Shown here: one piece after another, positions 16,204-39,105 of the stretch | Layout of the letters: each line of letters begins with the position of its first letter | Position numbering within the stretch: the first letter of the stretch is position 1 | Assembly (NCBI RefSeq): GCF_002025705.1 | Contig: NZ_CP018846.1 | Coordinates: forward strand, 310,001-374,000 | Direction: 5' to 3' | Length of the DNA stretch: 64,000 bases | Source of the DNA: Pseudomonas putida | Lineage (GTDB): Bacteria > Pseudomonadota > Gammaproteobacteria > Pseudomonadales > Pseudomonadaceae | Notes under the pieces: model-generated | Database searches by the model: none | What the model saw: the letters and a program-made list of their open reading frames with translations, nothing else | Told to the model about the DNA's origin: nothing | Made by a program: the position numbers and the translations under genes

Positions 16204-17520
16204 TCAGCGCTGACGCAGGCTGTCGAGCAGTTTGTGGGTCGGGTAGCCATCTGCCGGCCACCCCAGCCCCTGCTGGGCATTGCGAATCGCCTTGCGGGTA
16301 TTGGCCCCGATGATGCCATCCGGGTTGCCCGCCTCATGCCCCTTGGCATTCAACAAGTTCTGCAACTCCATCCGCTCGCTGCGACTCAGTGGCAGGTCTT
16401 CCTTCGGCCAGCTGCCGCTGATGAAGCCCCAACCCGAGAAGCGATCACCCAGCAGGCTCACCGCCAGCGCGTAGGAAGACGAGTTGTTGTACTTGAGAAT
16501 GGCGCGGAAGTTGTCCAGTACCAGGAATGCCGGCCCACGGGCGCCAGCCGGTAACAGTAGGGCAGCTGACAACTGGTTGCTGCCGGCCGGCAGCTGGGTA
16601 CCCGCAGGTAGCTTTACGCCCATCTGCAGCCATTCGTAAACCGGTTTGCGCAGCGTGCCGTCGGCCTGCCAATAGTCGAAGCCTGCTGGTACTTGCACTT
16701 CGAAGCCCCACGGCTGGCCATGCTTCCAGCCAGAGCTCTGCAGGTAATGTGCAGTCGATGCCAATGCGTCGGGCGTGCTGTTCCAGATATCCCGGCGACC
16801 GTCACCGTCGAAATCCACCGCATGGGTGTTGTAGGTGGTCGGGATGAACTGGGTCTGGCCCATGGCGCCGGCCCACGAACCACGCATGGCCTCAGGCTGG
16901 ATGTCGCCATGCTGGATGATCTGCAGGGCGGCGATCAGCTGGTCCTGGGCGAACTGGGGGCGGCGGCCTTCATAGGCCAGGGTGGCCAGCGAGCGGATCA
17001 CCGACTTGTTGCCCTGGAACTGGCCGAAGTTGCTTTCCATGCCCCACACTGCGACCAGTGCCTGGCGGTCGACGCCGTAGCGTTGCTCGATGCGGGTGAG
17101 CAGCTCGGCGTTCTGTTCCAGCAGTTTCTTGCCGTTGCGCACGCGCAGGGGCGACAGGGCACCATCAAGGTATTCCCATACCGGGCGGGTGAATTCGGGC
17201 TGGCTGCGGTCGGCCTTGATCACGTCCATGTCTGGCGTGACGCCGAGGAACGCGCGGTCGAAGGTGCTTGGCGCGATGCCGGCCTGGAGTGCCTGCAGGC
17301 GGAAGTTCGCCTGCCATTCGGCAAAGGTCTGCAGGGGCTGGATTTCGGTGCTGACGTCAGGCGTGGCGCTGGGCAGGGTCACTACCGGCGCGGGCTGGGC
17401 GGGCGCCAGCGGCAGGGCGTCGGCGGCGGTGGGTTTTTCCGCGCAGGCGACGAGCAGGATGAAGCTGGAGGCCGCGAGTAGCTGGCGGGATTTCCAACGG
17501 GGAAGAAGACTCAAGAGCAT
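16204..17520 (-). CDS. Lytic murein transglycosylase with C-terminal peptidoglycan-binding domain
   Basis: The 438-residue lipoprotein has a lipobox LVAC at residue 26 and a Pro/Ala-rich linker. An MltB-type catalytic domain spans about residues 65-360 (catalytic glutamate in WGMESNFGQF, plus GSWAGAMGQTQFIPTTY and VDFDGDGRRDIW). A PG_binding_1 domain occupies the last 60 residues (NPDGIIGANTRKAIRNAQ). It cleaves glycan strands non-hydrolytically. This is the second MltB-family enzyme in the window and differs from the one at 9557 by its lipid anchor and binding domain. It lies downstream of arfA on the same strand. Confidence 0.92.
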   Translation of the reverse strand: MLLSLLPRWKSRQLLAASSFILLVACAEKPTAADALPLAPAQPAPVVTLPSATPDVSTEIQPLQTFAEWQANFRLQALQAGIAPSTFDRAFLGVTPDMDVIKADRSQPEFTRPVWEYLDGALSPLRVRNGKKLLEQNAELLTRIEQRYGVDRQALVAVWGMESNFGQFQGNKSVIRSLATLAYEGRRPQFAQDQLIAALQIIQHGDIQPEAMRGSWAGAMGQTQFIPTTYNTHAVDFDGDGRRDIWNSTPDALASTAHYLQSSGWKHGQPWGFEVQVPAGFDYWQADGTLRKPVYEWLQMGVKLPAGTQLPAGSNQLSAALLLPAGARGPAFLVLDNFRAILKYNNSSSYALAVSLLGDRFSGWGFISGSWPKEDLPLSRSERMELQNLLNAKGHEAGNPDGIIGANTRKAIRNAQQGLGWPADGYPTHKLLDSLRQR

Positions 17521-17580
17521 GCACAGATCCAGAATTGCAGGTCAGGTGCCGACCATACCATGCCTGCGCTTGCGATGCTT

Positions 17581-17745
17581 TCATGCGGCCAAAAAGTAAG
17601 AAGCCTCCCAATCTCTCGATTGGAAGGCTTCGCGGCGGTAGCTGCCTTTGCCCTTGTCTGGTCGCTCCTGGCGGCAGCGGAAGAGGGGCTGGGCAATGAT
17701 CGACTTGGCCTTGTTCGGGCCGTGCTTTTTCGGCTTTTTGCTCAT
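17581..17745 (-). CDS. arfA: Alternative ribosome-rescue factor A
   Basis: This 54-residue frame encodes a typical ArfA: an N-terminal Lys-rich part (MSKKPKKHGPNKAK), then QPLFRCRQERPDKGKGSYRR and DWEAS near the end, matching the PLFR-R-E--KGKGSY-R...WEAS pattern of E. coli ArfA. ArfA recruits RF2 to ribosomes stalled on non-stop mRNA, as a backup to tmRNA. AGGAA lies eight bases before the ATG at 17745. A strong hairpin inside the frame (17600-17631) followed by U residues fits the known control in which arfA mRNA is itself non-stop. Its short hydrophobic tail SYFLAA lies beyond the hairpin. Confidence 0.93.
   Translation of the reverse strand: MSKKPKKHGPNKAKSIIAQPLFRCRQERPDKGKGSYRREAFQSRDWEASYFLAA
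17591..17631 (-). terminator. Hairpin/terminator within the arfA reading frame
   Basis: On the minus strand GAAGCCTTCCAATC and GATTGGGAGGCTTC form a 14-bp stem (one G-U pair) closed by a GAGA tetraloop, followed by TTCTTACTTTTT-type U-rich sequence before the TGA at 17583. In other proteobacteria an RNase III site or terminator at this position makes arfA mRNA lack a stop codon, so ArfA is produced stably only when tmRNA is limiting. Whether this one acts by termination or cleavage cannot be told from sequence. Confidence 0.8.
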
Positions 17746-17854
17746 GGCGGGGTTCCTGGCTTGGGTGGCTTTCGGGGCGCACTTTAGGCCTGGGAAGGTG
17801 AAGGAGCCAATTGATTGTGTTTATGGTCGCTCTCTGGGGCTGCTTCAGCCCCGG

Positions 17855-18892
17855 CTATTCTGCAGGCAGCACCAGCCTTTGCCCTGCCATCAATAGCGAC
17901 AAGCGCGACAACCCGGTCCAGGGCGAACCCTCGGCCTGCCCCTTGATCTGCGCATCGATACGCTGGGCATCTCGCAGCAACTGTGCCCAGCGCTGTGCCG
18001 AGAGGCGCTGCAGAGCCTTGCTGACGAGTGGTCGGCGCTTGTCCCAAACCGGTGGCCGGGCCTGGCTGAAGGCCTTGTCCAGCGGCACACCCTGGGAAAA
18101 TTGCTGGGCCAGGCCGGCCAGCAGGCGCAACTCGCGGGCCAGAGCCCAGAGAATCACCGGCGGTTCCACACCCTCGCCGCGCAAGCCTTCGAGCATGCGC
18201 AGGGCGTGTGCTGCCTCACCATTGAGGATGGCGTCAACCAGCCCGAAGACATCGAAACGCGCGCTGTCGGCAACCGCAGCCTGCACTGTCTCGACGGTGA
18301 TCTGGTTACCGTCAGCCAGCAGCTTGAGCTTTTCGATCTCCTGGGCTGCGGCCAGCAAATTGCCTTCGACCCGCGCGGCGATCAGGTCGACGGCATCGCG
18401 TTGGGCCGACAGCCCGGCCTGGGACAGGCGCTGGTTGATCCACTGCGGCAATTGCTGGGTATCCACCGGCCAGATCTGGATGAACTGGCAATGCGTGCCT
18501 TCGATCAGTGCCTTGCCCCACTTGGTCTTCTGTGCACTGCCATCGAGCTTGGGCAGGCTGATCAGCAGCAGGGTGTCTTCGGCGGGTCTGGCGCAATACT
18601 CCATGAGCGCGGCAGCCCCTTTGTCACCGGGCTTGCCCGACGGCAGGCGCAGCTCCAGCAGGCGCCGCTGGGCGAACAGCGACAGGCTGGCACCCGCTTG
18701 CAGCAGGGTACCCCAGTCGAAGTTGGCGTCGGCACTGAACACCTGGCGCTCGTCGAAGCCTTGCTGGCGGGCCGCATTGCGGATGGCGTCGGCGGCTTCC
18801 TGGCACAGCAACGGGTCATCGCCACTGACCACGTAGACCGGGGCCAGGCTGCCTTGCAGGTGCTTGTTGAGTTGGGCGGGGGCGAGCTTCAT
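17855..18892 (-). CDS. holA: DNA polymerase III subunit delta
   Basis: HolA (345 residues) is the clamp-opening subunit of the beta-clamp loader. The family is recognised from the N-terminal MKLAPAQLNKHLQGSLAPVYVVSGDDPLL, the LLISLPKLDGSAQKTKWGKAL region and the three-domain length. Delta lacks a functional P-loop, consistent with what is seen. It lies after lptE on the same strand, separated by 36 bases, in the conserved leuS-lptE-holA order. Confidence 0.95.
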   Translation of the reverse strand: MKLAPAQLNKHLQGSLAPVYVVSGDDPLLCQEAADAIRNAARQQGFDERQVFSADANFDWGTLLQAGASLSLFAQRRLLELRLPSGKPGDKGAAALMEYCARPAEDTLLLISLPKLDGSAQKTKWGKALIEGTHCQFIQIWPVDTQQLPQWINQRLSQAGLSAQRDAVDLIAARVEGNLLAAAQEIEKLKLLADGNQITVETVQAAVADSARFDVFGLVDAILNGEAAHALRMLEGLRGEGVEPPVILWALARELRLLAGLAQQFSQGVPLDKAFSQARPPVWDKRRPLVSKALQRLSAQRWAQLLRDAQRIDAQIKGQAEGSPWTGLSRLSLLMAGQRLVLPAE

Positions 18893-18928
18893 GGGAGCAG
18901 GCGGGGCGCCGGAGCGCCCCGCTCGGGC

Positions 18929-19534
18929 TTAGTTGCCCGGGATTTCCAGAGGTGACTGCTGCGGCGTTTCCGCCTGCTGGCGGCGCGCGGCCTCAAGCGC
19001 GTCGGCTTCAGCCTTGGCACGTGCGTCGGCCTTGCGTTGCAGCTCGTCGAGTTGGGATGGGGTCAGCATCTGCAGGCGAGTGACCATCGACTGCACCAGG
19101 TCGCGGCGCATTTCTTCGCGCGAGCGCTGGGCCTCCTGATCGGAGCCGGTGATATTACTGCCGTCACGCACATAGATCTTGCGTACTTCTACCTTGTCGC
19201 TCAGCAGCTCGAGGTTGTTAAGGCCCAGGATGCTGTAATTGAGCGTGGTGGTGAGCTCGTATTCGGCAGTGGCGTTGCCAGCCGCGTAGCTCGCCGAACG
19301 CGAGTTTTCCTGCTCGTTGGTCAGCACCAGGCGATAAGGTGCGCCGGCGTGCACATTGACGCCACTGTTCTCAAGTACCTGGCGCAGTTGAACCAGGGTC
19401 GGGCCATAGGCGTTGCGTGCGCTGACGTCCATTTCCTTGACGCTCAGTTCGTTGGTGCCGGTGCCGCGCAGCTGGAAACCGCAGGCGCTGAGCAGGACAG
19501 CCAGGCCCATTACCAGCAGATTGCGTTTGATCAT
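18929..19534 (-). CDS. lptE: LPS-assembly lipoprotein LptE
   Basis: The 201-residue outer-membrane lipoprotein forms a plug complex with LptD that inserts LPS into the outer leaflet. The signal sequence MIKRNLLVMGLAVLLSAC has a clear lipobox ending at Cys18, followed by GFQLRGTG, a standard LptE N-terminus. I chose ATG at 19534 for its GGGAG ribosome site; the longer frame to 19573 would bury the signal peptide. The C-terminus is rich in Arg/Ala/Gln and likely helical. It sits between leuS and holA in one operon. Confidence 0.94.
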   Translation of the reverse strand: MIKRNLLVMGLAVLLSACGFQLRGTGTNELSVKEMDVSARNAYGPTLVQLRQVLENSGVNVHAGAPYRLVLTNEQENSRSASYAAGNATAEYELTTTLNYSILGLNNLELLSDKVEVRKIYVRDGSNITGSDQEAQRSREEMRRDLVQSMVTRLQMLTPSQLDELQRKADARAKAEADALEAARRQQAETPQQSPLEIPGN

Positions 19535-38825: not shown

Positions 38826-38855
38826 ATTATCGATCCAGGGTTAAAAATTGCGCAA
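38826..38855 (-). promoter_or_regulatory. Possible promoter of the Lrp-family gene
   Basis: Read on the minus strand, TTGCGC (38855-38850) and GATAAT (38831-38826) are 18 bases apart and lie 32 bases before the ATG. The -10 matches five of six consensus bases but the -35 only three, so support is modest. Confidence 0.35.
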
Positions 38856-39080
38856 GTGCTATTTATCTGAGCAATCTTCGCAATCCTCTGCCGCAACCTC
38901 TCCCGTATCGTTACCTACAGAATCACTGCCCGGACATCAGTCCACGGCGACGCGCCCTAGGCGGGCGGTCGCGGCCAGCCATCCAACAGGATCTGCAGGC
39001 CCCCGGGCTACACAGCTTCCAGAAGACGCTGTGAGGTGAGCCGGCGCCACAAGTGCCGAGCACGGACGACAATTCTCAAA
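38856..39080. other. Apparently non-coding stretch, possible small RNA
   Basis: Between the Lrp-family gene and the DUF6515 gene are about 390 bases without a convincing gene. The stretch contains short palindromes (for example GCGACGCGCC with GGGCGGTCGC around 38949-38973) and ends in a strong intrinsic terminator at 39081-39105. No open frame has a ribosome site or normal codon use. A short plus-strand transcript is the simplest explanation of the terminator, but I could not identify a known RNA family. Confidence 0.35.
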
Positions 39081-39105
39081 GGGAGGCCAATGGCCTCCCT
39101 TTTTT
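39081..39105 (+). terminator. Intrinsic terminator without an obvious upstream gene
   Basis: GGGAGGCC and GGCCTCCC form an 8-bp stem around AAT, followed by TTTTTT. The T tract is on the plus strand. No plus-strand coding gene precedes it since rluE about 1 kb upstream, beyond two minus-strand genes. Confidence 0.85.

Follow-up and report, generated by a model that had tools for sequence, protein, structure and literature searches.

An in-frame hairpin with a putative terminator U-tract and a presumed SsrA-like C-terminus in the arfA gene of Pseudomonas putida

Introduction

Why does a gene for a ribosome-rescue factor retain a stop codon and a short tail beyond a terminator-like hairpin that lies within its own reading frame, and how would the product of such a gene be kept in check? 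The question is raised by a small minus-strand frame in the window, i.e., the whole stretch of 64,000 nucleotides analyzed here (Pseudomonas putida, contig NZ_CP018846.1, positions 310,001 to 374,000). An in-frame hairpin and the control of ArfA by tmRNA are already known (PMC8012679, PMC3989591, PMC10107115). Escherichia coli ArfA (YhdL) has an in-frame hairpin before the stop codon, a non-stop mRNA under the control of tmRNA and a full-length product that is unstable; the gene studied here shares the first of these and presumably the others. E. coli differs in that the message is cleaved by RNase III, with some termination, and that the cut removes a longer hydrophobic tail (PMC3989581). For P. 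aeruginosa PA3990 a hairpin has been predicted (PMC13159725). Thus, the in-frame hairpin and non-stop design of arfA is not new, as it has been described for E. coli and predicted for PA3990.

Terminators inside the reading frame also have precedents. Work of Schaub from 2012 is said to have described an in-frame intrinsic terminator which makes a non-stop message in arfA of Neisseria gonorrhoeae. The non-stop message of Bacillus subtilis brfA likewise comes from an in-frame intrinsic terminator; BrfA reportedly has neither sequence nor structural homology to ArfA (PMC6881298). Both genes share this feature with the putative terminator of the one presented here; an encoded SsrA-like end was not found for either of them in the available parts of the literature searched.

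Materials and Methods

The 3′ regions of arfA genes were compared in a set of 266 distinct regions obtained from 295 rows, including 80 loci of species-named relatives. The set comprises 255 Pseudomonadaceae regions and two from records titled Pantoea; the loci L106, L195, L208, L240 and L241 are absent from it. Judged by their species names, the nearest named relatives belong to the Pseudomonas putida group. In a survey of endings that included ArfA from beyond Pseudomonadales, nine of 375 loci gave no row. For the holA tree, an upstream ORF was available in 250 of the 266 cases, 40 of which were left out as not holA-like. Of the resulting 210 rows, 154 fall into the 11-codon class, whose tail has 5 residues. 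Background C-termini were taken from 327 ORFs of at least 150 amino acids on 464 kb of the same genome. For covariation, 50 distinct stems of one length, drawn from 183 rows, were used. Statements on published systems refer to the accessible portions of the cited sources.

Results

The arfA gene and its locus

The minus-strand frame encodes a protein of 54 residues, MSKKPKKHGPNKAKSIIAQPLFRCRQERPDKGKGSYRREAFQSRDWEASYFLAA. It matched the Pfam model of ArfA with 36.5 bits, exceeding the curated cut-off of 25.5, and could be aligned with ArfA of E. coli from solved structures, among them chains of 5u4i and 5mdv, over PLFR..KGKGSY..WEAS (best E 1e-4). The PLFR...KGKGSY core is common to ribosome-bound ArfA as represented by these chains. 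The identification of an ArfA frame of 54 codons by the initial annotation was thereby confirmed. No NCBIfam match was obtained for the frame at E values up to 0.001. At the same threshold the whole genome (6.14 Mb, one contig) contained a single ArfA match, arfA itself. The features of the locus are compiled in Table 1.

Table 1. Features of the arfA locus (coordinates refer to the window)
Feature	Position	Strand	Basis or remark
arfA, alternative ribosome-rescue factor A, 54 codons	17581..17745	(-)	Pfam PF03889; alignment with E. coli ArfA chains
TGA stop codon	17581..17583	(-)	16 nt past the stem; absent from a message ending in the U-tract
Codons for C-terminal YFLAA, in full-length (read-through) ArfA a presumed SsrA-like C-degron for ClpX	17584..17598	(-)	AA ends of relatives; tmRNA tag
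U-tract UUACUUUUU of the presumed intrinsic terminator	17591..17599	(-)	Scan; codon -4 NTT in 221/225 short-tail relatives
In-frame hairpin, 14 bp, GAGA loop, encoding EAFQSRDWEAS	17600..17631	(-)	Terminator scan; folding; covariation in 50 stems of relatives
Shine-Dalgarno-like AGGAA, 7 nt before ATG	17753..17757	(-)	Sequence inspection
holA (DNA polymerase III delta), upstream neighbour	17855..18892	(-)	TIGR01128, 295.9 bits
MltB-type lytic murein transglycosylase, downstream neighbour	16204..17520	(-)	TIGR02283, 400.3 bits

The gene starts 109 nt behind the end of holA, and the transglycosylase gene begins 60 nt past the arfA stop codon. A scan with the sigma-70 consensus disclosed no promoter-like sites between 16500 and 19000. 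By inspection, a weak promoter-like sequence (TTGGCT-18-TAAAGT) was noticed between holA and arfA at 17781-17810 on the minus strand, whose ATCAATTGGC was seen again in some of the loci of 12 relatives. No Rfam family was detected in the region 16500-18500 at E values up to 1. Elsewhere in the window, at 38848-39100 on the plus strand, lies the Pseudomonas sRNA P24 (RF00629, 234.7 bits).

Whole-genome searches with the Pfam ArfA model, carried out on samples that overlap each other, gave a match in 194 of 199 genomes of the genus, in 159 of 198 genomes of the family (17 of 19 genera), in 19 of 245 genomes of the order and in 8 of 370 genomes of the class. Matches were also obtained in the order of a distant match (71/197), in family f33 (29/101) and in genus g3 (25/25). 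Within the family, genera g113 and g115 did not yield an ArfA match, nor did five of the 199 genomes of the genus, all of these genomes being at least 90% complete, and possibly these are losses of the backup system.

The hairpin within the reading frame

The terminator scan revealed a hairpin at 17631-17600 followed by TTACTTTTTG. It lies inside the coding region ahead of the TGA codon, and seven of its 14 pairs are G-C. The stem with its GAGA loop and the U residues behind it had been correctly recognized before, but its placement just before WEAS was wrong, because WEAS is encoded by the 3′ arm of the stem itself. Folding of a 51-nt stretch around the hairpin gave -24.9 kcal/mol (z = -6.97), which was equalled by none of 200 shuffled sequences; for a stretch of 101 nt, z was -3.10. 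Within 2.5 kb (16500-19000) four terminator-like sites were found on both strands, compared to a mean of 1.8 in shuffled sequences, and the arfA hairpin was the only one of them on the minus strand.

Upon random synonymous recoding of the whole arfA gene, 47 of 2000 versions contained a 34-nt hairpin of the same stability, 68 of 3000 recodings of the 3′ region folded equally well, and all 14 pairs were retained in 5232 of 200000. Given its peptide, the stem in one sequence is just mildly improbable (about 2-3%). An argument from chance based on the single sequence was therefore dropped as proof of the stem, and the case rests on the relatives.

Conservation of the stem in relatives

A best stem of at least 10 pairs that ended before the stop codon was present in 261 of the 266 distinct arfA genes, the finder reporting the best stem per gene without a null of its own. 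In the remaining five the best stem ended past the stop codon. Four of these genes come from family f33; the fifth is L220 of Pseudomonadaceae, which has no good stem (7 pairs only).

The initial annotation had proposed a search for compensatory changes, and these were indeed present. Across the 50 distinct stems 94.3% of the cells were paired. Seven of the 14 pairs showed changes on both sides (shuffled mean 3.4), the number of cells with such changes was 29 (shuffled mean 6.9), and the covariation score reached 0.224 (shuffled mean 0.144, slid versions at most 0.088); none of 500 shuffles came as high in any of the three, the scores being inflated by kinship among the relatives. For the number of pair types, 20 of 500 shuffles reached the observed value. 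Of the 50 stems, 24 lack the innermost pair and six lack pair 11-22. The stem has been retained through paired amino acid swaps (Q...W, R...R, S...E, P...G). Its Ala codons at positions -7 and -15 did not change once in the 154 rows of the holA tree, and the Ala at -7 is encoded by GCT in all 225 short-tail genes versus a genome background of 12.8%. These comparative data indicate that the hairpin is maintained by selection at the RNA level.

Terminator or RNase III site

Codon -4 is NTT in 221 of the 225 short-tail genes and ends in T in 223. Where it encodes Phe, TTT is used in 160 of 160 cases, compared to 18.9% of the Phe codons of the genome. At least four T residues within 8 nt past the stem were counted in 231 of 261 relatives. 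From the uniform use of TTT and from the NTT codons we concluded that the U-tract itself is selected. The stem has 11 to 14 pairs in 235 of the 266 relatives. Substrates of RNase III need a long stem of about two turns, which the 14 bp of this gene do not provide; what is present is a G+C-containing stem directly followed by a U-rich run, as in an intrinsic terminator. The hairpin of PA3990 has been called shorter than known RNase III substrates in a review (PMC13159725). An RNase III site, which does not need the U-tract retained by synonymous codons, was hence downgraded as the main reading, and an intrinsic terminator would, as our best reading, fit the short stem and the U-tract better.

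Termination in the U-tract would leave a peptide ending with ...WEASY(F). Thus, only about (F)LAA, three or four residues, would be missing, and not SYFLAA as assumed by the initial annotation. Its view that the gene gives a non-stop message under tmRNA control is supported by homology and by the apparent selection on the RNA, while the part on cleavage gives way to a terminator as the favoured origin of the 3′ end.

The C-terminal tail

The full-length protein ends with AA in 243 of the 266 distinct relatives and with LAA in 177, while 23 do not end with AA. [LMVIF]AA, i.e., Ala-Ala preceded by a nonpolar residue as in YFLAA, occurs in 226. Within Pseudomonadaceae, 236 of 255 distinct genes and, counted by genome, 193 of 212 genomes have the AA end. 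Among the 327 background ORFs of the same genome, which include no short proteins, AA was found at eight ends, two of these ORFs being alike, and LAA at none. The ORF just upstream of arfA ends with AA in two of 261 loci. At the three positions in front of AA, nonpolar or aromatic residues predominate.

Fifteen of the 16 possible GCN-GCN codon pairs are used at the arfA end. In the 154 rows on the holA tree, the last two codons underwent 69 codon changes and no amino acid change, and in all 190 short-tail rows 93 codon changes and three amino acid changes. The Ala codons at the end thus change synonymously, whereas those in the stem never do, which argues that the end pair is kept for the protein and the stem pair for the RNA. 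Judged by these codon changes, the terminal -AA is conserved at the protein rather than the DNA level. The description of the tail as hydrophobic was consequently replaced by that of a presumed SsrA-like C-degron, which fits better with a conserved -LAA.

Rows that do not end with AA make up 13 of the 210 on the tree, namely three with a short tail and 10 of the 20 with a longer tail. The latter 20 rows form seven clades, five of which have an AA-ending member; there, in 10 rows, AA closes tails that are 5 to 18 residues longer. The largest clade lacking AA comprises seven rows ending with RAC or ARA after a longer tail. The tail extensions were also considered as independent gains of AA, an argument weakened by the fact that some tails longer by 15 nt may have arisen by insertion in front of a pre-existing GCC GCC TGA and not by loss of a stop codon.

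None of 33 distinct ArfA proteins from beyond Pseudomonadales, which are best matches from 30 of the 71 matching genomes in the order of the distant match plus three loci from the search of the class, ends with AA. Their tails are different and often hydrophobic, so that a hydrophobic tail does not require AA and the presumed degron is a feature of the clade. Family f33 was rejected as an independent proof of the degron. There, 27 of 28 ArfA proteins end with AA, L195 being one further case, but in 25 of the 27 most of the Ala codon sequence is base-paired within a hairpin that surrounds the stop codon, and AA can therefore not be credited to the protein.

Other layouts were noticed as well. 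In f33, another family of the order, the genes (L192-L196, L359-L382) mostly have their stop codon enclosed by a long hairpin with imperfect pairing, which resembles an RNase III-type site more than a U-tract terminator; L382 is an exception having a stem and a T-run upstream of the stop codon. In family f229 (L338-L340, L343, L345, L347, L349, L353) seven of eight ArfA proteins end with VCC and the other one with VWC, and the conserved VCC could be a different degron. The stop codon of arfA is TGA in 220, TAA in 44 and TAG in two of the 266 relatives, versus 54 TAG stops in the 327 background ORFs. TAG is the stop codon not read by RF2, the partner of ArfA; since the arfA rows are related, its scarcity may be due to chance.

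The tmRNA tag and clpX

The tmRNA of this genome encodes the tag ANDENYEGYALAA, which ends with YALAA, and the end of ArfA, YFLAA, matches four of these five final residues. A clpX gene is present in the genome.

Discussion

The carboxylate of the terminal Ala-Ala is the main element of the SsrA tag read by ClpXP, and SsrA-like endings of natural proteins are known to target this protease (PMC7652416). In the same work GFP-yalaa was degraded and GFP-laa was not (PMC7652416), so the tail must be accessible. Full-length ArfA of E. coli is unstable and is stabilized by two Asp residues at the C-terminus, an effect that the authors ascribed to the hydrophobic C-terminus (PMC3989581). The likeness of YFLAA to YALAA, the reading of Ala-Ala by ClpXP and the instability of the E. 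coli protein led us to propose two successive locks for this backup ribosome-rescue gene, a terminator with tmRNA and then an encoded degron. We consider this proposal quite likely. It is founded on the identity of the gene, the covarying stem, the codon bias of the U-tract, the protein-level conservation of -AA, the tmRNA tag and the clpX gene.

The first lock would act on the RNA. The in-frame hairpin with its U-tract would end most arfA transcripts before the stop codon, ribosomes would stall at the 3′ end, tmRNA would add ANDENYEGYALAA, and the tagged ArfA peptide would be destroyed. If trans-translation fails, the untagged ...WEASY(F) would be released and active. The second lock would act on the protein. 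Read-through messages would be translated up to the stop codon, giving a product whose end YFLAA may be an encoded imitation of YALAA, and ClpXP would destroy it without the help of tmRNA. ArfA would thus escape ClpXP only when the message is truncated and tmRNA is absent. The protease reading the tail could also be another one. FtsH is a further candidate for such C-termini. Lon and Tsp have been named for SsrA tags (PMC3989581), and ClpAP is named among the proteases as well (PMC13159725).

A control like that of E. coli, with RNase III cutting the hairpin to give the non-stop mRNA and a tail that is simply hydrophobic instead of a specific degron, is in our opinion rather unlikely. The non-stop end of the E. 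coli message is produced by RNase III (PMC3989581), and nonpolar or aromatic residues prevail in front of AA, but the stems of the relatives are short, as noted for PA3990 in the available text of the review (PMC13159725), and the U-tract, needless for RNase III, is kept by synonymous codons. Moreover, ArfA from beyond Pseudomonadales often has a hydrophobic tail, yet AA is lacking in all 33 cases.

The conserved Ala-Ala might instead serve the work of the ArfA C-terminus on the ribosome, in the mRNA channel or with RF2. Indeed, the C-terminus sits in the mRNA channel in solved complexes; against this, truncation leaves E. coli ArfA with full activity, and no more than 46-48 residues have been modelled (PMC8012679). 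The messages thought to make active ArfA would not contain these codons at all, and AA also closes longer tails in five of the seven clades, if only in 10 of their 20 rows, so we regard a ribosomal role of the pair as improbable. That Ala-Ala arose by chance from base composition, or from a DNA or RNA signal spanning the stop codon, is hardly credible. With 12,785 codons Ala leads the nine residues tabulated for the genome and GCC GCC TGA is G+C-rich, but the third positions are free, all 69 changes being synonymous with 15 of the 16 codon pairs in use, and AA ends are rare among the background ORFs (8/327) and in the ORF that precedes arfA (2/261). An encoded degron therefore remains our preferred reading of the tail.

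Unlike in E. coli, the stem of the gene studied here is short and followed by a selected U-tract, the protein ends with an SsrA-like -LAA, and termination would cost only about three or four residues. With PA3990, known to us from a review, it shares the predicted hairpin, and the readings as terminator and degron are proposed here. In the literature searched, a body that takes in few subscription papers, we found no statement placing ArfA among the AA-ending ClpXP substrates or assigning it an SsrA-like end. If the second lock holds, the encoded degron would be a new form of the second lock known from E. coli ArfA, described there as a hydrophobic tail. We think it likely that ArfA of Pseudomonadaceae carries a hard-wired end of the tmRNA-tag type, with an RNA-selected terminator and a protein-selected degron lying side by side within about 16 codons.

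For the kind of hairpin, the comparative evidence gives a clear and testable answer, a terminator and not an RNase III site. Since only about three or four residues would distinguish the read-through product from active ArfA, this product would need an off-switch of its own, and the two locks would explain why a stop codon and a tail have been retained past the terminator. If this is true, one tag sequence would be used twice in these bacteria, added in trans by tmRNA and encoded in cis by arfA.
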